A stretch of 64,000 bases of DNA from an uncultured Amylibacter sp. (lineage in GTDB: Bacteria; Pseudomonadota; Alphaproteobacteria; Rhodobacterales; Rhodobacteraceae), in the NCBI GenBank assembly GCA_943846615.1, contig OX044354.1, positions 1,815,001-1,879,000 of the forward strand, in the 5' to 3' direction. Position 1 is the first letter of the stretch. Every line of letters starts with the position of its first letter. Positions 53,278 through 64,000 of the stretch are shown one piece after another. Below the pieces are notes generated by a model, which worked only from the letters and a program-made list of their open reading frames with translations, had not been told where the DNA came from and searched no databases. A program made the translations under genes and the position numbers.

Positions 53278-54491
53278 GAATCTAATCCGAATTCGGTGTG
53301 CTCTAATGCCGTCATAATTCCACGTAATTCCGCCAATCCCTTTAAACGACCAATTGATGGATAACCTGGTTGCGGATTGCGCCCCAGATCATCCAAAATA
53401 TCCTGTCCGTGATCTGGACGAAAGGGAATCGATACATCTGGGCGACCCTCTTTGCGACGCTTCTTCTCTTGGCGAATGATTGCGGCAATCAATGCGACCA
53501 TATCAGTGCCACCACCCAAATGCTCCGCTTCGTGAAAGCTTCCGATGATATCATCACTCTCGCGTTGGACATTGCGCATATGGATGAAATGGACACGATC
53601 GCCTAAACGATCCATGATGCCCGCCAAATTATTATCTGGACGCGCACCCAACGAACCCGAACACAATGTCACCCCGTTTGCAGGAATGTCGACAGCATCC
53701 ATGATGTATTGATAGTCGGCTTCGGTAGACATTACTCGTGGCAACCCCAACAGGGAAAACGGTGGATCATCTGGGTGGCAACACAAGCGTATTCCCAATT
53801 CTTGTGCGTGGGGCGCGACCTGTTCCAAAAAGGAGACCAGATGTTTGCGCAATTGATCAGGTGAAATATTATCATAGGCTGCCAAATGCGCCCGCACATT
53901 ATCCAACGTCATACTGTCCGCGGCACCAGGTAGGCCACAAACGATGTTTTTGTTCAGATCGATACGTTGTTCATCTGTCATCTGATCGAAACGCTGTGTG
54001 GCAGCATCGATCACGTCGGCTGGGAAATCATCACGCGCACCTGCGCGTTTCAAGATATGCAAATCAAAGGCGGCGAAATCGATCAAATCGAACCGCATGC
54101 AGGTGGCGCCATTGGCCAATCGATGTGCCAAATCCGTACGTGTCCAATCCAAAACAGGCATGAAATTGTAACAAACAATCTCGATTCCAGCGTTGTGCAA
54201 ATTTGTCAGGCTTTCCTTATAGGCTGCAATATCGGTCTGCCAATTATTTGTCTGGCGCTTGATGTCTTCGGAAACGGGCAGGCTTTCGACCACGTCCCAT
54301 TTCAAACCCGATGGCGATCCGTCTTTCATCGTGGCGATCTCGTGTTGACGCTGTGCAATGTCCGTGGGTGTCCACACAATGCCAGGAGGATGATCGTGCA
54401 ACGCAGATACCACGCCCTGAACGCCCGCCTGACACATGTCATCAATTGAAACGAAATCATGTGGTCCAAACCACCGCCAAGTTTGCTGCAT
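53274..54491 (-). CDS. uxuA: Mannonate dehydratase
   Basis: A 405-residue TIM-barrel enzyme that dehydrates D-mannonate to 2-keto-3-deoxygluconate. MQQTWRWFGPHDFVSIDDMC at the start (E. coli UxuA opens MEQTWRWYGPNDPV from memory), ALHDHPPGIVW, YNFMPVLDWTRTDL, CCHPDDPPFSLLGLPRVMST and LCSGSLGARPDNN are family motifs including metal ligands. The frame is open to 54734, but ATG 54491 is the homologous start. It heads the minus-strand operon and is divergent from a GntR gene 70 bases away. No glucuronate isomerase or KDG kinase gene is in the window. Confidence 0.95.
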   Translation of the reverse strand: MQQTWRWFGPHDFVSIDDMCQAGVQGVVSALHDHPPGIVWTPTDIAQRQHEIATMKDGSPSGLKWDVVESLPVSEDIKRQTNNWQTDIAAYKESLTNLHNAGIEIVCYNFMPVLDWTRTDLAHRLANGATCMRFDLIDFAAFDLHILKRAGARDDFPADVIDAATQRFDQMTDEQRIDLNKNIVCGLPGAADSMTLDNVRAHLAAYDNISPDQLRKHLVSFLEQVAPHAQELGIRLCCHPDDPPFSLLGLPRVMSTEADYQYIMDAVDIPANGVTLCSGSLGARPDNNLAGIMDRLGDRVHFIHMRNVQRESDDIIGSFHEAEHLGGGTDMVALIAAIIRQEKKRRKEGRPDVSIPFRPDHGQDILDDLGRNPQPGYPSIGRLKGLAELRGIMTALEHTEFGLDS

Positions 54492-54561
54492 TTGTGGGTC
54501 CCGCAATTTTATCCAGATGACACAAATACCAACTTCCATACAAGTTGACAAGCCTGCCACC

Positions 54562-55302
54562 ATGACCGACAATATTACGCGAAAGGCACCGCCAAAAATG
54601 ACCGATTCCAACAGAGATATGACAACGCTAAAAGATGGAGCGGTGGTTCCGCAGCTACATCTTATTTTGCGGGATCGGATTGTCACTGGTGACCTGATCC
54701 CTGGGCAACGTGTGTCGGAAACCGAATTCGCCAAGGCCTATAGTATTTCGCGCCAACCCGTGCGCGAAACGTTTATCAAGCTGGCAGAGGAAGATTTAGT
54801 TGTGGTCAAACCGCAGCGCGGAACATTCGTGACACGCATATCCGTGCCTGCCGTTTTAACCGCACGCTTTATCCGCGAAGCCGTCGAAGCAGACATCGTT
54901 CGCATCGCCACAGATCGCGCGACACCAGATATAATCGCAAAACTAGATATAGCCGTCGAGCAACAACGCATCACGGCGAAATCGGGAACTCCAGCCGAAT
55001 TCATGCAGTTGGACCAAGCATTCCACCACCAATTGGCAGAATTTGCAGGCAAGCGCGATGTTACGAATTACCTGCGCGTCCTTAACATCCCCGTAAACCG
55101 CGTGCGAAATATCAGTGCACGCCAATTTTCGCCTGACAGATTGATTGCACAGCACGCCAAAATCGTTGACGAAATGCGTAAACATAACCCGACAGCGGCG
55201 ATGGAACAGATGCGCGCTCACCTGCGCGAAATAAACATAGACTTGCCCCATATCGTAAAAGCAAACCCAGATTTTTTTGAAGGTACAGAAACGCTCTCAT
55301 GA
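54562..55302 (+). CDS. GntR-family regulator (FadR/VanR subgroup), probably of the uxu genes
   Basis: A regulator of up to 246 residues. The winged helix region is LHLILRDRIVTGDLIPGQRV, then FAKAYSISRQPVRETFIKLA and KPQRGTFVTRIS; the FCD domain follows with FIREAVEADIVRIA and LDQAFHHQLAEFAGKRDVTN. Its divergent position to uxuA suggests it controls hexuronate catabolism, as UxuR/ExuR do in other bacteria. The start is uncertain: ATG 54562 has no good Shine-Dalgarno, ATG 54598 has AAAGG 11 bases upstream, and 54619 is also possible. It overlaps the AGE gene by 4 bases. Confidence 0.87.
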   Translation: MTDNITRKAPPKMTDSNRDMTTLKDGAVVPQLHLILRDRIVTGDLIPGQRVSETEFAKAYSISRQPVRETFIKLAEEDLVVVKPQRGTFVTRISVPAVLTARFIREAVEADIVRIATDRATPDIIAKLDIAVEQQRITAKSGTPAEFMQLDQAFHHQLAEFAGKRDVTNYLRVLNIPVNRVRNISARQFSPDRLIAQHAKIVDEMRKHNPTAAMEQMRAHLREINIDLPHIVKANPDFFEGTETLS

Positions 55303-56516
55303 CCACATCAATCAGCACCCCGATCTCGCAAAACCATCCAGACAGTGCTGCGTCGCCAGATACATGGGTAGCATGGTTCTGGGATGATTTTTTTCCAAAT
55401 TGGATTAATCGGGCCAAAGATCCAATGGGTATAGGGTTTTTCGATTTACTAGATGAAAACGGACACCCGCCCGCCCAACCCTCAAAAACGATTTTGGCAC
55501 AGGCGCGCTTGTTGTTCACTTTTTCCCATTTGGCGTTGTTGTCTGGCAATCCAAAATACCAAGCCGCTGCGCGTGATGCACGCGATGCCTTGGTGCATTT
55601 TCGCAAGCCTTCAGGTTTGTATCGTTGTCGCGTTGGTCGCGATGGTGCATTGGACGATGATCCGACGAGTGACCTGGCCAGCAGCTATGACCAAACATTT
55701 ATTATTTTGTCATTGTCCACATGGGGCAAGCTGGATCGATCCGAAGATGTGAGTGAAGAGTTAGAGAACCATTGGAACGCCGTCGAAGCCAATCTTATCG
55801 ATCCTGTCACGAGCATGTTTTTGGAACACGACGGCATCACCGATCCTGTCGCCAACACCGCGCCACAACGCGCCCAAAACCCCCATATGCATATGTTCGA
55901 AGCCGCGCTTCAAGCGTTTGAGATGACAGGCGACAAAAAATGGTTGGAACGCGCGCAATCCAAACGCGCAGTGGGTCTGAAATATTTCTTGGATACTGAC
56001 AGCGGTACAATCGCAGAATTCATCGCACCTGACCTGTCGATCCTGCCAGGTCGCGAAGGCGAGCGCCGCGAAATCGGCCACCAATGCGAATGGGCATGGT
56101 TGTTGTTGCGAGAAGTAGAATTGGGCGGCGACCCTGCAATGGCAGATGTTGCAAACCGTATGCTGGATTTTGCCGACAACCATGGTTTTGCCACAGATGG
56201 CATCATGAAAGGCGCGGCGTTTGACGCGCTTTCTGCCAACACAGAGTGGCGCGAAGATAAGTTTTTGCTGTGGCCTCAAACCGAAGCCATCAAAACATAT
56301 GCCGTTCGCGCATCCGATGCGGATTTTACCGCCAAAGCGAAAAGGTTGGCGCAGGTTATCTTCAAACAGTACTTCGCCAACCGCGCGGCCTATGTGAATC
56401 AGCTTGATGAAGATGGTAATGTCTTGTGGGCCGAAGGTTTGAGCCGTTTGCATTATCATCTGGTTTTGGCTCTGACAGAGGGTGCACGCGCTAACCTTTG
56501 GTCGGCACCGCACTAA
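55299..56516 (+). CDS. AGE-family sugar epimerase/isomerase
   Basis: A 405-residue (alpha/alpha)6-barrel protein of the N-acylglucosamine 2-epimerase family. QARLLFTFSHLALLSG, NPHMHMFEAALQAFEMTG (catalytic-site His region), REIGHQCEWAWLLLREVE and LLWPQTEAIKTYA give the usual series of active-site His/Glu/Trp. The family includes N-acetylglucosamine epimerase, cellobiose epimerase and mannose/fructose isomerase; the subgroup cannot be set from motifs alone. Coupled to the GntR gene by a 4-base overlap and near uxuA/uxuB, it probably feeds a hexose or uronate into that pathway. Confidence 0.85.
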   Translation: MTTSISTPISQNHPDSAASPDTWVAWFWDDFFPNWINRAKDPMGIGFFDLLDENGHPPAQPSKTILAQARLLFTFSHLALLSGNPKYQAAARDARDALVHFRKPSGLYRCRVGRDGALDDDPTSDLASSYDQTFIILSLSTWGKLDRSEDVSEELENHWNAVEANLIDPVTSMFLEHDGITDPVANTAPQRAQNPHMHMFEAALQAFEMTGDKKWLERAQSKRAVGLKYFLDTDSGTIAEFIAPDLSILPGREGERREIGHQCEWAWLLLREVELGGDPAMADVANRMLDFADNHGFATDGIMKGAAFDALSANTEWREDKFLLWPQTEAIKTYAVRASDADFTAKAKRLAQVIFKQYFANRAAYVNQLDEDGNVLWAEGLSRLHYHLVLALTEGARANLWSAPH

Positions 56517-56572
56517 AAGGCTTGCGCATGGTGATATGTTCCCGCACTCTTTGATCATTAACGGAGGGTGCG

Positions 56573-57547
56573 ATGGCGGATAAACATGATACTGCAATGA
56601 TGGAAAATCTGTACTGGTGGGGTATTCCGACACTGTTTCGCGCCGAACATGGAACCGTGGCGGGCAAGGATATTGCCCTTGTTGGCGTGCCGCACTCCGC
56701 CGGCAATGGTACAACGGAACGCGATCAACATTTAGGCCCGCGCGCTGTGCGCAACATTTCCGCCGTTCATCGCCGCGTTCACGGCGCGTTCGACATCGAT
56801 CCATGGGTAATGGCCGATGTTGCCGATTTGGGCGATGTGCCGTTTCCACGCGCGAACGACAACGAACACTGTATTCAGCAAATAACCGATTTCTATCGTG
56901 AGATCGATAAGGCAGGCGCGCGGCCTGTTTCCATCGGCGGCGATCATTCGATAACGGGTGGGATCGTTCAGGCATTGGGTGGCGGAAATTTAACGAACGG
57001 CGAACCCCTCAGTTTCCTGCACTTGGATGCGCATACGGATGTTTTCACCAAGGTTGATCATTTTTTGGGGGCGGAAAAATCGGCGGCGCATTGGGGCGCA
57101 TATCTGGCAGATCAGGGGCAGGTTGATCCAAAACGCTCGATGCAAATTGGATTACGGGGGCATCCACGCACGTTGGATTGGCTGCAACCCAGTTATGATT
57201 ATGGTTACAACGTCGTAACGATGGCAGAATACCGTAAACGCGGTGCGGCTAACGTGATTGAGCAAATCAAAGAGGTGCTGGATGGTCGCCCAGTTTACAT
57301 TACGTTTGATCTGGATTGTTTGGATTGTACCGTTGCACCAGGTGTTTCAAATCTGGAACCATCGGAAAACGGATTTTCAATGGACGAAGCCATGGAATTA
57401 GTTCGTTCCGTGCGTGGGATGAATGTGGTGGGCGGGGATGTTGTGTGCCTGATGCCGACCAAAGACGCGCCAAATCAAATTACGGCGCATCGCGCCGCGG
57501 CGGTTATGTTTGAGATGATTTCAATAGTTGCGGAGAATGTGAAATGA
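56573..57547 (+). CDS. Ureohydrolase (agmatinase/guanidino-acid hydrolase family)
   Basis: A 324-residue arginase/agmatinase-family enzyme. The metal ligands are present: H125 in GGDHS, D152, H154 and D156 in LDAHTD, and D246 and D248 in TFDLDCLD. After this the usual D-P-x-x-A-P-G is replaced by DCTVAPG, with Cys252 at the proline position, and a GTTERDQHLGPRAVRN loop stands where agmatinases have GTTNRPGARFGPRAIR. The substrate is therefore uncertain: agmatine, guanidinobutyrate, guanidinopropionate or free guanidine are candidates. A. GGAGGG precedes ATG 56573. It overlaps the DUF1989 gene by 4 bases. Confidence 0.87.
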   Translation: MADKHDTAMMENLYWWGIPTLFRAEHGTVAGKDIALVGVPHSAGNGTTERDQHLGPRAVRNISAVHRRVHGAFDIDPWVMADVADLGDVPFPRANDNEHCIQQITDFYREIDKAGARPVSIGGDHSITGGIVQALGGGNLTNGEPLSFLHLDAHTDVFTKVDHFLGAEKSAAHWGAYLADQGQVDPKRSMQIGLRGHPRTLDWLQPSYDYGYNVVTMAEYRKRGAANVIEQIKEVLDGRPVYITFDLDCLDCTVAPGVSNLEPSENGFSMDEAMELVRSVRGMNVVGGDVVCLMPTKDAPNQITAHRAAAVMFEMISIVAENVK

Positions 57548-58401
57548 AACCTAATGGAACTAATCCCATCCCCGCCGATGCCCGCGCACGTCGCGCCGAA
57601 CCCGTCGTAATTTGTTATCCAACGGACACGCTCCCCCCGTTTGATCGCGCGTTTTATGATGGTGTGCGCGAAGGGATGGAATTGATCGACGCTGTCACTG
57701 TACCGCCACGCCAAGGGAACACGGCGCATGTCCCCGCAGGCCACATCTTCCGCATCGTATCGGTTGATGGACCACAGGTTGGTGATTTGAACCTGTGGAA
57801 CGCCAATGACCTGAGTGAACGGTTCTATTCGGGCAAAACGCGCGCATTGCACGGTACACATTTGGGCGTCGGAGACAAAATGTGGTCAACATTTCCCTCA
57901 ATGCGCCCAATGGCGACCATTATCGGTGACACATTGGATTGGTACGGATTTGACGCGGATGGTGGATCGGTTCACGATGTTATCGGTACGCGCTGTGACC
58001 CCTATACCAACAACTTGTTGACCGACGATCAATACCACCATTGTTGTCATTCAAACTTAACAAGGGCCTTGGCTGACGCCAAAGACATGACATTACAACA
58101 GGCGGAACCATTGGTGCATGATGTAATGAATGTGTTCATGTGTACGGGATTTACCCATAAAACTCACCAATATTTCATGAAGGCCAGCCCGGTGCGCCCC
58201 GGCGATTACATCGAAATGTTCGCCGAAATTGACCTGTTGGTTGGATTATCCGCCTGCCCAGGTGGAGATTGCGGATCAGAACATTCCAGCGATGTCGTCA
58301 CATGTTATCCGTTGGTTATCGAGGTGTATAAGCCAACCGCCGATTTGGGTGACTGGCAATCCCCAGCGCCAAATAAATATGATCGAAGTCACGGACGTTG
58401 A
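57544..58401 (+). CDS. DUF1989 / urea-carboxylase-associated family protein
   Basis: A 285-residue DUF1989 protein. VTVPPRQGNTAHVPAGHIFR, DGPQVGDLNLWNANDLSERF and a C-terminal ACPGGDCGSEHSSDVV are typical; two cysteines in YHHCCHSNL and those in the C-terminal motif may bind zinc. Family members CgdA and CgdB form carboxyguanidine deiminase in guanidine degradation, while others accompany urea carboxylase or amine transporters. The 4-base overlap with a ureohydrolase gene suggests a joint role in splitting a guanidino compound. No urea carboxylase gene is nearby. Confidence 0.85.
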   Translation: MKPNGTNPIPADARARRAEPVVICYPTDTLPPFDRAFYDGVREGMELIDAVTVPPRQGNTAHVPAGHIFRIVSVDGPQVGDLNLWNANDLSERFYSGKTRALHGTHLGVGDKMWSTFPSMRPMATIIGDTLDWYGFDADGGSVHDVIGTRCDPYTNNLLTDDQYHHCCHSNLTRALADAKDMTLQQAEPLVHDVMNVFMCTGFTHKTHQYFMKASPVRPGDYIEMFAEIDLLVGLSACPGGDCGSEHSSDVVTCYPLVIEVYKPTADLGDWQSPAPNKYDRSHGR

Positions 58402-58466: not shown

Positions 58467-58543
<77 letters not shown>

Positions 58544-59340: not shown

Positions 59341-59925
59341 TTGTCCAAGCCACTTCATATTGTTGTAATAGATCCTCATAAAGAGCGTGCGTTCCTGATT
59401 GTCGATGGATTAAGGGAGGAGTGGGACTACAAGGTCACCGTCATTGGCGAAACATCTGGGTTGGCACGTAAACTAGGCGAGCTACAACCAGACATTATCC
59501 TGATCGATTTGGAAAACCCATCCAGGGACAGCTTTGAGCAGATCGTTTTGGCTCTGGGCGCGAGTGAACGACCGGTTGCGATGTTTGTGGATCATAGCGA
59601 TCAGCAAATGATGCGCGCTGCAATCGATGCCGGTATTAGCGCCTATGTCGTTGATGGCTTGCGCAAGGATCGGATCACACCAGTCTTGGAAACAGCGATT
59701 GCACGGTTTCACGCGTTCCACCGCATGAAAACAGAATTGGAAACAACCAAGGCCGCGCTGGCGGAACGTAAAACTATCGATCGAGCCAAAGGTGTTCTGA
59801 TGAAAGCGCGTGGGATGTCCGAAGAGGACGCATACGCATTGTTACGCAAAACCGCCATGGATCAAGGCCGCAAGCTATCAGAAGTTGCCGATGGGTTAGT
59901 CGATGCAGCGGGGTTGTTGTTATGA
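59341..59925 (+). CDS. nasT: NasT, ANTAR-type nitrate/nitrite response regulator (antiterminator)
   Basis: A 194-residue regulator: a receiver-like domain (HIVVIDPHKERAFLIVDGLR, ILIDLENPSRDSFEQI with a candidate Asp) and a C-terminal ANTAR RNA-binding domain from about 134 (RKTIDRAKGVLMKARGMSEE, DAYALLRKTAMDQGRKLSEV). NasT binds two-hairpin leaders and prevents termination; NasS holds it inactive until nitrate or nitrite is present. The start is TTG 59341 after AGAGG; no ATG fits the N-terminus. It overlaps nasS by 4 bases. The matching RNA target is found at 61150-61267. Confidence 0.93.
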   Translation: MSKPLHIVVIDPHKERAFLIVDGLREEWDYKVTVIGETSGLARKLGELQPDIILIDLENPSRDSFEQIVLALGASERPVAMFVDHSDQQMMRAAIDAGISAYVVDGLRKDRITPVLETAIARFHAFHRMKTELETTKAALAERKTIDRAKGVLMKARGMSEEDAYALLRKTAMDQGRKLSEVADGLVDAAGLLL

Positions 59926-61082
59926 GTGCGCCAATTAACATCGGTTTTGTGCCTCTGACAGATGCTGCGCCATTAATCATTGCGCATGAAATGGGTTTCG
60001 CCCGCGAAGAGGGAATATCCTTGAATCTTAGCCGCGAGTTGAACTGGTCAACGGTTCGCGACAAATTGGGGTTTGGCATACTAGACGGTGCACATCTTCT
60101 TCTCCCTTTGGCGTTGTCATTGTCGTTGGGCGTTGGCCCAGTCTTTTGCGAAATTGATGTCGCGATGATTATGAACATGAATGGAAATGCGCTGGTGGTT
60201 AACCATCAGCTGGCAAATGCGTTGAGGGTTGCGGGGTGCCAGATTGGCGATGCACGCTCTTTCGCGACAACAATGATAAAACTGACCTCGAATGCTCCAG
60301 TTAGAATAGCCGTGCCATATATGGACAGCATGCATGTAACGATGTTGCGCCATTTGATCCTACGTTTGGATAAACGCCCTGAGGATATTTTTGAATTCCA
60401 CGTTTCATCGCCATCCGCTATCGAAAGTCTTTTGAGAAGCGGCGACGTAGATGCTTTCATGGTTGGTGCGCCTTGGGGCTCGAAGGCCGTAGAGAACGAT
60501 ACTGGGTGCTGGATGCTCAGCTCCAATTCAATTTGGCAAGGTGCGCCCGAGAAGGTGTTAGGTCTGCGGCGTGGTTGGGTGCGTGAAAATGAAGAATTGG
60601 GCGTTCGATTGACGCGTGCTGTTTATCGCGGTGCGAACTGGGTTGCCAACAGATCAAATGCATCTGTAGCAAGTGAGATTTTATCGCGTTCGGAATATCT
60701 GGATATGGATGCGTCACTGATTGAATACAATCTACGTGGGGAGGTTGTCGTAAATTCCAGCGGAACAACCATTTTTGATCCATTGGCGATACAGTTTGAC
60801 GCAAATCGAATCGGGTTTCCATGGCACAGCAGTATTGGCTGGGTGGCTGAGCAGAACGCTTCATCATGGAAGATTGATAAATCCGTCGCGCGTCAGTTAT
60901 CGACCGAATGTTGTCGCACGGATTTGTACCGCAAAGCGCTCGAATCGATCTATGGGCCTGTGCCATCGGCCAATGCCAAGTTGGAGGGTAGCTTGGCTGA
61001 ATTGACGCCAGTGTCTGGCAGCAATAACCCCATTTTGGGCCCCGATGCCTTTTTTGATGGCGAAATTTATGACCCTGCCTAA
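59922..61082 (+). CDS. nasS: NasS, nitrate/nitrite sensor related to NrtA
   Basis: A 386-residue cytoplasmic protein of the NrtA/CmpA binding-protein fold, without a signal peptide. INIGFVPLTDAAPLIIAHEM opens it, and LDGAHLLLPLALSLSLG and VGAPWGSKAVEND correspond to ligand-site regions of NrtA. NasS binds nitrate or nitrite and releases NasT. The relation to NrtA encoded 200 bases downstream is visible ([20 protein letters not shown] there). It shares a 4-base overlap with nasT, so the pair is made together. Confidence 0.92.
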   Translation: MSAPINIGFVPLTDAAPLIIAHEMGFAREEGISLNLSRELNWSTVRDKLGFGILDGAHLLLPLALSLSLGVGPVFCEIDVAMIMNMNGNALVVNHQLANALRVAGCQIGDARSFATTMIKLTSNAPVRIAVPYMDSMHVTMLRHLILRLDKRPEDIFEFHVSSPSAIESLLRSGDVDAFMVGAPWGSKAVENDTGCWMLSSNSIWQGAPEKVLGLRRGWVRENEELGVRLTRAVYRGANWVANRSNASVASEILSRSEYLDMDASLIEYNLRGEVVVNSSGTTIFDPLAIQFDANRIGFPWHSSIGWVAEQNASSWKIDKSVARQLSTECCRTDLYRKALESIYGPVPSANAKLEGSLAELTPVSGSNNPILGPDAFFDGEIYDPA

Positions 61083-61112
61083 AATTTGAACAGAAAATAA
61101 ACGTCAATAATA

Positions 61113-61141
61113 TTGACCCTTTCCTAACCTTTTCTTATCCT
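61113..61141 (+). promoter_or_regulatory. Sigma-70-type promoter of nrtABC
   Basis: TTGACC (61113-61118), 17-base spacer, TATCCT (61136-61141). The start is expected near 61148, just at the base of the first ANTAR hairpin, which supports the reading. Confidence 0.65.
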
Positions 61142-61149
61142 AAGGCCAC

Positions 61150-61211
61150 GAACGACAACGATGTCGATCACGGCCCATCCTCCCGGGCCTCCTTCCAAGC
61201 AACGCCGCTTG
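61150..61211 (+). promoter_or_regulatory. ANTAR-binding two-hairpin motif (NasT target)
   Basis: Hairpin P1: GAACGAC (61150-61156), hexaloop AACGAT, GTCGATC (61163-61169) with one A-A mismatch. Hairpin P2: CAAGC (61196-61200), hexaloop AACGCC, GCTTG (61207-61211). Both loops have A at position 1 and G at position 4, the known ANTAR recognition rule. P2 shares 61204-61211 with the 5' arm of the following terminator, so NasT binding and termination are mutually exclusive. A GGCCC/GGGCC stem may form in the linker. Confidence 0.82.
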
Positions 61212-61267
61212 ATCCAAGTACACAGTGAAAATTTGCGCTGTGTGGTTTGATCAAGCGGCTTTTTTTA
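61204..61267 (+). terminator. Leader terminator controlled by NasT
   Basis: GCCGCTTGATC (61204-61214) pairs perfectly with GATCAAGCGGC (61249-61259), with an inner stem CACAG/CTGTG (61221-61225/61238-61242), followed by TTTTTTT. It lies between the promoter and nrtA and its 5' arm overlaps ANTAR hairpin P2. Confidence 0.88.
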
Positions 61268-61281
61268 TTCGGAGTTTACGA

Positions 61282-62625
61282 ATGCGTATAAAAACAATTT
61301 TAATGACAGCGGCCGCAACAGTGCTGACATCATTCCCGGCATTGGCAGAGATGCTGGATGTCGAGAAAGACGAGCTAAAGCTGGGCTTTATCAAGCTTAC
61401 CGATATGGCCCCGCTTGCGATTGCATATGAAAAGGGCTTCTTCGAAGATGAAGGCCTGTTTGTAACCATCGAGCCGCAAGCGAACTGGAAGGTTCTGTTG
61501 GACGGCGTGATTGATGGCACATTGGACGGCGCGCACATGCTGGCGGGTCAACCATTGGCGGCGACGATTGGTTTCGGAACCAAGGCACATATCGTGACGC
61601 CGTTTTCAATGGATTTGAACGGTAACGGCATCACGGTTTCAAACACCATTTGGGAAGAGATGAAACAATATGTTCCCAAGGACGAAGCGGGCAAACCAAT
61701 CCACCCGATTTCAGCATCAGCATTGAAACCAATTGTTGATCGTTACAAAGACGAAGGTAAGCCGTTCAACATGGGTATGGTTTTCCCAGTGTCTACACAC
61801 AACTACGAATTACGTTACTGGTTGGCATCTGGGGGTATTCACCCAGGTCTATACACCGAAGACAATATCTCTGGTCAGGTTGATGCGGATGTGCTGTTGT
61901 CTGTGACGCCTCCACCACAAATGCCCGCGACAATGGAAGCGGGAACGATCTTGGGTTACTGCGTAGGCGAGCCTTGGAACCAAGCTGCCGTATTCAAAGG
62001 TATCGGTGTTCCAGTTATTACGGATTACGAAATTTGGAAAAACAACCCTGAGAAAGTCTTTGGCATGACCAAGGAATTCACAGAGAAAAACCCAAATACG
62101 ACGATCGCACTTACCAAGGCTTTGATCCGTGCCGCTGAATGGTTGGACGCGGATAACAACGCCAACCGCGCCGAAGCTGTGGAAATCCTAAGTCGTCCTG
62201 AATATGTAGGTGCTGACGAAGAGGTCATCGCGAACTCTATGACAGGTACATTCGAGTACGAAAAAGGTGACAAGCGTGAGATCCCCGATTTCAACGTGTT
62301 CTTCCGCTACAACGCGACCTACCCATTCTACTCAGATGCGATTTGGTACCTGACGCAAATGCGTCGCTGGGGTCAAATCACAGAAGCGAAGCCAGCTGAA
62401 TGGTACGCCCAAGTTGCGGCAGACGTTTACCAGCCTGATTTGTACCTGAAAGCCGCCCAAATGTTGGTCGACGAAGGTTTGATCAAAGCCGCCGACATCC
62501 CATTTGGTACAGACGGTTACAAACCTGCAACCAGCGCGTTTATCGACGGGATCGAATATGACGGCAAGAAGCCACTTGAATACTTGAACGCCCTGACAAT
62601 CGGCAACAAAGACAACGCGTCTTAA
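61282..62625 (+). CDS. nrtA: Nitrate/nitrite ABC transporter substrate-binding protein
   Basis: A 447-residue periplasmic binding protein with signal peptide ([20 protein letters not shown], cleavage expected after ALA). [39 protein letters not shown] and [16 protein letters not shown] are typical of NrtA. The related CmpA binds bicarbonate, but the NasT/NasS genes and ANTAR leader favour nitrate/nitrite. ATG 61282 follows the leader terminator with CGGAG as Shine-Dalgarno; the frame open from 61225 runs through the terminator stem. Codon use is strongly biased, as for other binding proteins here. Confidence 0.94.
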
Positions 62626-62679: not shown

Positions 62680-63753
62680 ATGACCGCAATTGCAGACCCA
62701 AAAATGGAAAAAGGCGCACGTAAAGAGCGCTTCTTTTCAAAGGTAAACGCAGCCGACAAATATGTTTCTGTCCTTGGCTTGGCTTGGATAACCCCACTGT
62801 TGAAAATCATCGGTGGCGATGACCCGCGCTCAAACGGCAAAGAAATATGGAGATTGTTGGGTGTGCCATTGCTGGCCATCATATTATTCCTGTCCGCCTG
62901 GGGCGTTTTGGCACCAAAGGTTGTCACATCCTTGGGTGCCGTACCTGGCCCAGCGCAGGTTTGGGAACAATTCGGAAAATTAAACGATGATCACGCGCGT
63001 CAACGTGATAAAGAGACGGCATTTTACGAACGCCAAGATATCCGCAACGACAAACTGATTGCCGCGGGTAAAGAGGACAAGGTTAAGCACCGCAACTTTA
63101 CAGGTGCACCAACATATTACGATCAAATCTGGACATCATTGAAAACTGTATTTTTTGGCTTCCTTATCGCAACAGTGCTGGCGGTTCCCCTTGGGATTGC
63201 GGGTGGCCTATCGCCATATGTCTCTGCTGGTATGAACCCCATCATTCAAATTTTCAAACCCGTTTCACCGCTGGCATGGCTGCCGATTGTGACGATGGTC
63301 GTTTCTGCCACGGTTACATCAGCAGAGCCATTGTTGGCGAAATCATTCTTGGTTTCCGCCATCACCGTAACCCTATGTTCTATCTGGCCGACATTAATCA
63401 ATACGACGTTGGGTGTGGCCAGTATCGACAAGGATTTGGTGAACGTCAGTAAAGTTCTGAAACTCGGGACTTGGACAAAAATCACCAAGCTGGTTTTGCC
63501 ATCTGCATTACCATTGATCTTTACCGGTTTGCGTCTGTCTCTGGGTGTGGGTTGGATGGTTTTGATCGCCGCTGAAATGCTGGCTCAGAACCCGGGTTTG
63601 GGGAAATTCGTTTGGGATGAATTCCAAAACGGTTCCAGCCAATCGTTAGCGAAAATCATGGTGGCTGTTTTGACAATTGGGATCATCGGATACCTACTGG
63701 ACCGCCTGATGTACGCCCTGCAATCAATGTTCACCTTCACAAGTAACAGGTAA
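62680..63753 (+). CDS. nrtB: Nitrate/nitrite ABC transporter permease
   Basis: A 357-residue permease. A cytoplasmic N-terminus leads to a helix at about 62-82 (LGVPLLAIILFLSAWGVLAP), then an inserted charged region of about 60 residues (AQVWEQFGKLNDDHARQRDK...), then five helices of the BPD_transp_1 domain. The coupling motif is seen in VSKVLKLGTWTKITKLVLPS and LGVGWMVLIAAEMLAQNPGL. The long charged insertion is found in proteobacterial NrtB. It is followed 4 bases later by the ATPase gene. Confidence 0.93.
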   Translation: MTAIADPKMEKGARKERFFSKVNAADKYVSVLGLAWITPLLKIIGGDDPRSNGKEIWRLLGVPLLAIILFLSAWGVLAPKVVTSLGAVPGPAQVWEQFGKLNDDHARQRDKETAFYERQDIRNDKLIAAGKEDKVKHRNFTGAPTYYDQIWTSLKTVFFGFLIATVLAVPLGIAGGLSPYVSAGMNPIIQIFKPVSPLAWLPIVTMVVSATVTSAEPLLAKSFLVSAITVTLCSIWPTLINTTLGVASIDKDLVNVSKVLKLGTWTKITKLVLPSALPLIFTGLRLSLGVGWMVLIAAEMLAQNPGLGKFVWDEFQNGSSQSLAKIMVAVLTIGIIGYLLDRLMYALQSMFTFTSNR

Positions 63754-63757
63754 GATC

Positions 63758-64000
63758 ATGAGCATTCTATCATTACAAAATGTAGCCAAGTCATACGGCG
63801 ACAGTAACATCCTGAAGGACATCAACCTAGAGGTCGAGGAAGGAGAATTTATCGCCATCCTCGGATTTTCAGGATCGGGAAAATCAACTCTGATGAACAT
63901 TCTAACAGGATTGGAAATACCAGATTCTGGCGACGCGTTGTACAATGGAAAGCCGATTACAGAGCCCAGCCCAGAGCGCGGTCTAGTATTCCAAAGTTAC
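63758..64000 (+). CDS. nrtC: Nitrate/nitrite ABC transporter ATPase, N-terminal fragment
   Basis: The first 81 codons are visible before the window ends: MSILSLQNVAKSYGDSNILK, then the Walker A motif as LGFSGSGKSTLMNIL (about 36-50) and the Q-loop GLVFQSY at the edge. The signature and Walker B lie beyond. It starts 4 bases after nrtB. Whether it is the short NrtD-type or the long NrtC-type ATPase with a fused binding domain cannot be told from this fragment. Confidence 0.92.
   Translation, partial: MSILSLQNVAKSYGDSNILKDINLEVEEGEFIAILGFSGSGKSTLMNILTGLEIPDSGDALYNGKPITEPSPERGLVFQSY

Follow-up and report, generated by a model that had tools for sequence, protein, structure and literature searches.

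The stretch between nasS and nrtA in the window (the whole 64,000 nucleotides analysed here, from an Amylibacter-like marine genome) is very probably a NasT-controlled transcription antiterminator placed before the nitrate genes, in the form of an element that has three hairpins in the Rhodobacteraceae. This kind of switch is already documented. The leader is a further member of the ANTAR kind, and its third hairpin makes the Rhodobacteraceae leaders a variant.

Leader anatomy and the genes around it

The whole leader lies in the gap between the end of the nasS stop codon (61082) and the ATG of nrtA (61282), directly downstream of nasT-nasS, as the earlier note had placed it. The features of the region are as follows.

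59341-59925, + strand: nasT, 194 aa, TTG start as listed; response-regulator-like domain and ANTAR RNA-binding domain
59922-61082, + strand: nasS, nitrate-binding-protein-like (Pfam NMT1_2, E 4.4e-50), overlapping nasT by 4 bases
61113-61141, + strand: sigma-70-like promoter, TTGACC (61113-61118), 17-nt spacer, TATCCT (61136-61141); 9/12 match
61153-61166, + strand: hairpin P1, CGAC(AACGAU)GUCG, hexaloop with A at position 1 and G at position 4 (A1/G4), from sequence, fold and relatives
61172-61189, + strand: middle (third) hairpin, GGCCC(AUCCUCCC)GGGCC, from the fold and from purine-1/G4 loops at the same place in relatives
61196-61211, + strand: hairpin P2, CAAGC(AACGCC)GCUUG, A1/G4 hexaloop, from the fold and relatives
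61204-61259, + strand: terminator hairpin, arms 61204-61214 (5') and 61249-61259 (3'), -36.5 kcal/mol
61260-61266, + strand: terminator U-tract, U7 (TTTTTTT), from the sequence
61282-62625, + strand: nrtA, first gene after the leader, 447 aa from the chosen ATG (Pfam NMT1_2, E 8.8e-97)
62680-63753, + strand: nrtB, nitrate ABC permease (TIGR01183 ntrB, E 1.6e-45, 155.3 bits, below the cut-off of 209.05)
63758-64000, + strand: first part of nrtC, whose full product in the genome has 561 aa and two ATPase domains (TIGR01184, 595.9 bits, above cut-off)

Both A1/G4 hexaloops reported in the earlier note are read directly in the window, and so is the overlap between P2 and the 5' arm of the terminator, which have eight bases in common (61204-61211). 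Its other statements on the anatomy have to be narrowed. The terminator it called perfect is so in its outer 11 bp. The promoter it proposed is present as a sigma-70-like sequence and is a weak match, with one match of this type found against 0.8 expected in shuffles, which is not significant alone. The two-hairpin picture is right in that P1 and P2 are real, but it overlooked the hairpin at 61172-61189. This middle hairpin stands in the 29-nt linker between P1 and P2, 5 nt from P1 and 6 nt from P2. It keeps a strong stem, but G4 is missing from its loop AUCCUCCC. A loop with G4 in another register was rejected, the loop having no G at all. Near the promoter, the window carries an inverted repeat with 6-base arms, GTCAATAATATTGAC (61103-61117), which overlaps the -35 box and is possibly an operator. 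The middle loop also includes the anti-Shine-Dalgarno-like motif CCUCC (61179-61183), a motif that occurs between P2 and the U-tract in 24/73 family leaders compared to 5.4 expected.

Folding with RNAfold supports two mutually exclusive forms. Positions 61148-61270 fold into the terminator form (-53.9 kcal/mol, z -8.0), and the RNA up to 61216 folds into P1, the middle hairpin and P2 (-23.3 kcal/mol, z -4.1). RNAfold adds one pair atop P1, leaving a 4-nt loop, and the hexaloop is the ANTAR-type reading of this hairpin. Enforcing P2 in the full leader gives -38.8 kcal/mol, a cost of about 15 kcal/mol that would have to be met by bound protein or by co-transcriptional timing. A loose pattern of hexaloop plus terminator has three copies in the window and zero to five per resampled window (13 in 12 windows); among the three, the one at 61201 is the only copy with an 11-base arm and seven T. 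A promoter and terminator scan of the window listed no terminator at the leader, because that scan has a loop limit of 3-8 and a contiguous-stem rule. Rfam scans gave no ANTAR-type match in the leader, and Rfam 15 may or may not include such a model; the weak miRNA-family matches that they returned there were rejected.

The ANTAR model has a single match in the genome, the nasT just upstream of the leader (E 4.8e-22, 77.9 bits). Its receiver part matches Pfam Response_reg at E 9.8e-7 and 29.4 bits, slightly below the cut-off of 30.2. A profile of 16 NasT relatives matches the structures 1s8n (a putative antiterminator, the best match) and 6wsh ("response regulator"), which we take to be EutV, and also 4akk, a nitrate regulatory protein, over the ANTAR part. 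The neighboring gene is named nasS from its position beside nasT and by analogy with Paracoccus denitrificans. No signal peptide was seen by eye in NasS, and the NrtA N-terminus looks signal-like by eye. A receiver-like ANTAR protein is encoded beside a predicted cytoplasmic NrtA-like protein. The nearest named genomes by NasT, among 80 loci kept, are those of Amylibacter kogurei (83%) and A. marinus (77%).

Behind the leader, nrtA, nrtB, nrtC, nirB, a nitrate reductase gene and a glycosyltransferase-like gene follow on one strand. A longer GTG start for nrtA, at 61225, is present in the ORF list. Beyond the window, NirB scores above cut-off (TIGR02374), and the best model for the molybdopterin nitrate reductase is NasC (493.5 bits, below its cut-off of 1100). 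The genes downstream therefore comprise a nitrate importer, NirB and a putative assimilatory nitrate reductase, and from their order we infer that the one leader could control the whole operon. Upstream of nasT, a tRNA gene (58467-58540, Rfam gathering level) separates it from a row of genes at 54436-58401 that encode a GntR/FCD regulator, a GlcNAc-2-epimerase-like protein, an arginase-family protein and a DUF1989 protein; this row is perhaps, as a guess, a cluster for breaking down nitrogen compounds that adjoins the nitrate cluster.

Published homologues suggest how such a leader would work. Without nitrate, NasS would hold NasT, the leader would fold as the terminator, and transcription would end before nrtA. 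With nitrate or nitrite, NasS would let NasT go, and free NasT would bind the A1/G4 hexaloops of P1 and P2. P2 would then retain the eight bases needed by the terminator, and polymerase would continue into nrtABC-nirB and the nitrate reductase gene. The middle hairpin would divide the long distance between P1 and P2 into two shorter ones.

Conservation in the Rhodobacteraceae

The leader is conserved in the family. Of the 198 family genomes sampled, 73 (counting the window's own) have NrtA at E <= 1e-100, and we took all 73 upstream regions (loci L003-L075, the window being L003). With no rule on loop letters, a P2-type hexaloop overlaps the 5' arm of a terminator in 63/73 leaders, and these loops have A1 in 60, G4 in 60 and both in 59. 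In the other ten, either a simple finder settled on a different stem or the overlap rule excluded every hexaloop hairpin. A search for the longest hexaloop hairpin further upstream gave one in 54/73 leaders, with A1 and G4 in 40, and some of the 14 without them are middle hairpins taken as P1. The earlier note had named loss of the loop positions, or of the overlap, in relatives that keep nrtA as the outcome that would overturn its reading; what is found instead is retention of A1/G4 in 59/63 P2 loops.

For alignment, P1 and P2 were picked with a purine at loop position 1 and G4 required, and the P1 loop was looked for 23-75 nt upstream of the P2 loop. Manual placement was used for P1 in seven loci (L051, where P2 was placed manually too, L023, L016, L039, L035, L024 and L006) and for P2 in L052 and L059; L006 and L059, with P1 absent or doubtful, were excluded, leaving 71 leaders. 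By alignment, P1 has A1 in 70 and G4 in 71, and P2 has A1 in 69 and G4 in 71; these counts are overstated because of the loop-letter rule and the hand work, and the count without a rule is the proper test. In L020, L023, L039, L073 and L075 the middle hairpin has approximately an A1/G4 hexaloop, so the label P1 is a choice there.

RNAalifold recovered three hairpins from the 71 leaders. Across the three helices, 91.6% of 920 cells are paired, and 159 double-sided changes are present, where shuffles give 44.5 and slid versions no more than 59. We then used a covariance model (R2) made from 58 matches in 57/80 named loci, with the window's genome excluded and two Amylibacter included. The 58 matches had themselves been found with a model (R1) built with the window's leader among its 71, and they include a few doubtful ones, for example L169, L199 and the minus strand of L175. 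In the window, R2 matches the leader at 43.3 bits (E 5.8e-8), and the next matches reach 8.8 and 8.1 bits; across the genome, with 150 of 469 first-look candidates scored, no other match was reported at E <= 1. The fold and covariance search that the earlier note had proposed as a check thus bears out the element, with both forms folding, and its NasT/ANTAR reading is supported by the lone ANTAR match next door, the conserved P2 loops and the R2 match. A scan of 385 class genomes with R1 gave matches at E <= 0.001 in six genomes; it is not used as a survey because only 12 candidates per genome were scored.

The same 73 leaders carry further signals upstream. TTGA occurs 30-60 nt before the P1 loop in 30/73, where 14.3 would be expected; 26 occurrences form a peak at 40-49 nt, and the window's TTGA lies at 44 nt. 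A larger TTGA peak, 120-159 nt before the P1 loop and about the end of nasS, may be coding. Within about 110 nt before the P1 loop, 47/73 leaders have the palindrome TGCNGCANTGCNGCA with at most two mismatches (1.3 expected, maximum 3 in 50 resamplings); it is absent in the window and present before P. denitrificans nasA.

The leader might instead be an ordinary terminator separating two operons, its ANTAR-like hairpins being accidental; in favour of this, loose hexaloop-plus-terminator patterns arise by chance about once per 64 kb. We consider this very improbable given the R2 match, the covariation and the conservation of both loops and their overlap across genera. Judged from sequence, the comparative evidence is stronger than the chance statistics of the window.

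The middle hairpin inside and outside the family

The linker between P1 and P2 is 19-47 nt long (median 32) in the 71 leaders, the window included, with lengths that depend on the rule-based choice of P1 and P2. In 49/71 linkers there is a hairpin whose loop of 6 or 7 nt has a purine at position 1 and G4; 200 shuffles gave 9.5 on average and 18 at most, and some of the 49 will be chance hairpins. No enrichment is seen for loops of the same kind in which position 4 is A, C or T (7, 11 and 6, versus 11.8, 15.8 and 10.7 expected). When loops are taken by minimum energy with no letter rule, G4 is present in 53/69 (8.7 in shuffles, maximum 15). A second set with energy-defined loops gives G4 in 36/49 (8.4 expected, maximum 15), although this set was chosen by R1 and is pattern-biased. 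By alignment, the middle loop has G4 in 62/71, with A at position 1 in 39/71 and G in 27/71. The linker counts are not independent of one another, since related genera have a common ancestry, but unpaired linker columns outside the loop have 28-51% identity, except for one with 68%. Five family leaders (L152, L165, L170, from Cognatishimia maritima, L172 and L175) have three A1/G4 hexaloops.

Covariation in the middle helix alone is mixed. It has 15 double-sided changes versus 2.6 in shuffles, a level reached by 2/500, but versions slid by -3 or +1 have 15 and 14 such cells, and 48/500 shuffles reach its count of pairs changed on both sides. Its paired cells (89.0%, slid versions at most 70.5%) and covariation score (0.421, slid versions at most 0.204) stand clear. 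By energy, single middle hairpins are mostly not significant (p <= 0.05 in 14/71, median 0.19).

The dimensions of the hairpin vary as well. The loop has 7 nt in 26/49 and 6 nt in 23/49. The gap from P1 has a median of 12 nt and is at least 13 nt in 23/49, and the gap to P2 has a median of 5 nt and is less than 5 nt in 17/49, so that these gaps do not fall neatly in the EutV range. A longer, different hairpin occupies the site in L005. In A. kogurei, G4 is counted from a GCCC/GGGC stem with an 8-nt loop that is able to close further, and in A. marinus the G is at position 5.

Beyond the family, 37 of 289 class genomes encode a NasT relative at E <= 1e-25. The window's genome is one of them, and the other 36 gave 37 loci, which were scanned by script and by eye. 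Three A1/G4 hexaloops are present in L133, L142 and L130, with no U-tract seen behind those of L130, and L117 has a hexaloop middle hairpin with G1 and G4. Pairs with gaps of 2-9 nt are present in L113, L119, L121, L132, L136, L139 and L146, and five Mesorhizobium loci have pairs with a 3-nt gap. In L127, L134 and L138, with linkers of 28-33 nt, no middle hairpin was seen by script and eye, and other loci showed no complete element in the same scan. Counted by model score, R2 gave 17 candidate matches at E <= 1 among the 37 loci (two below 1e-8, L112 and L117, seven at 0.0007-0.024 and eight weaker). The third hairpin is neither universal nor restricted to one genus.

Known systems and readings of the three-hairpin leader

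The closest documented system is nasA of P. denitrificans, where an ANTAR protein NasT and a nitrate-sensing NasS are likewise encoded beside a leader that lies between nasS and the structural genes, which there are nasABGHC rather than nrtABC. NasS-NasT dissociates with nitrate or nitrite, and NasT shifts the nasA leader RNA (PMC3795266). A leader hairpin is required there for nitrate induction (PMC3795266, PMC5424462): mutating hairpin HI severely lowered expression, and a chromosomal HI mutant showed no growth on nitrate (PMC5424462). Hairpin HII is described in the same source as not needed for nitrate induction. In the P. denitrificans nasA leader (L154, 7743-8026) we found three tandem purine-1/G4 hexaloops, one with a 3-bp stem, and no U-tract terminator by scan. 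The printed positions of HI and HII, 137 and 91 bp before nasA (PMC5424462), mismatch the centres of the hairpins found here (-152, -127 and -104).

The EutV leaders of Enterococcus and Listeria resemble the window's leader in having two A1/G4 hexaloop hairpins, of which P2 excludes the terminator. They differ in their linker, which has 5-12 nt (PMC3369931) compared to 29 nt with an inserted hairpin in the window. In the E. faecalis eut leaders, linkers of 3 or 14 nt led to a drastic loss of induction (PMC3369931), and 20 extra linker nucleotides abolished EutV antitermination in vitro (PMC8934654). The long linker marks a variant rather than an exclusion from the kind, since the search definition of PMC3369931 allows a variable linker. 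The nasF leader of Klebsiella oxytoca is likewise a two-hairpin ANTAR RNA before a nitrate operon, and its regulator NasR prefers A1 and G4 in SELEX (PMC7496416). NasR itself senses nitrate, whereas sensing would be expected in NasS in the window's system. AmiC-AmiR, with a different ligand and operon, resembles it in that a binding-protein-like sensor holds an ANTAR protein, a likeness to NasS-NasT suggested in PMC3795266. A largely surface-level search of mostly non-subscription literature brought up no account of an ANTAR leader with three hairpins.

Antitermination by NasT remains the favoured account of the leader as a whole, although the 29-nt linker is beyond the tolerance of EutV, the window's middle loop lacks G4, the promoter is a weak match, and mutating HII in P. 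denitrificans left nitrate induction nearly intact according to PMC5424462. What the middle hairpin contributes is less certain. It may simply compact the linker and bring P1 and P2 close, the loop letters being inherited and not read. The strong pairing of the helix, the longer and different hairpin in L005 and the window, which keeps the stem after losing the loop signature, are consistent with this reading, but inheritance alone is hard to credit for a G4 so much better conserved than the unpaired linker around it. We regard this as quite plausible, if short of probable, for the family at large. In the window's Amylibacter-like lineage, where the stem alone appears to remain, the middle hairpin is most likely a spacer because of this loss.

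In many relatives the middle loop resembles a further ANTAR site, and the hairpin might instead be a third site, with NasT handed on from P1 by way of the middle hairpin to P2, or with all three held by a larger NasT oligomer; such a site would be compatible with a relay along the nascent RNA. The excess of purine-1/G4 loops in the linkers, the persistence of G4 when no letter rule is applied, the leaders with three A1/G4 hexaloops inside and outside the family, and a NasT oligomer of about six (PMC3795266) point in this direction. The divided loop size, the mixed A and G at position 1, the absence of G4 in the window and the shifted G of A. marinus do not. Its standing is further lowered by P1-middle gaps that are longer than 12 nt in about half of the cases, with many middle-P2 gaps also outside the EutV range, and by three long-linker leaders outside the family that lack such a hairpin. 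We therefore hold it only tentatively, and are equally guarded about the fuller proposal, possible but rather doubtful, that Rhodobacteraceae NasT leaders are three-site antiterminators with a co-transcriptional NasT relay, from which window-type lineages lost the middle site and kept a spacer stem. A working pair made up of the middle hairpin and P2, with P1 as an extra recruitment site, would have a short gap as in EutV and in the short-gap pairs outside the family. This is unlikely, as conservation is higher in the P1 loop than in the middle one, and such a pair is impossible in the window, where G4 is missing from the middle loop.

The third hairpin is relevant to a published question about EutV, whose dimer is argued to contact each hexaloop individually (PMC8934654), namely whether the dimer sits on both hexaloops at once or contacts them sequentially. 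Leaders with three candidate sites, together with a near relative without the middle signature, are natural material for comparing stepping with simultaneous binding. Should the third site prove real, leaders of this type would escape target searches that presuppose a short linker, and if NasT is relayed, the distance between P1 and P2 can far exceed the limit measured for EutV. In two of the leaders outside the family (L115 and L120), a short-gap pair is also preceded by A1/G4 hexaloop hairpins at a distance of 94-133 nt, a layout suggestive of two putative ANTAR elements per leader.
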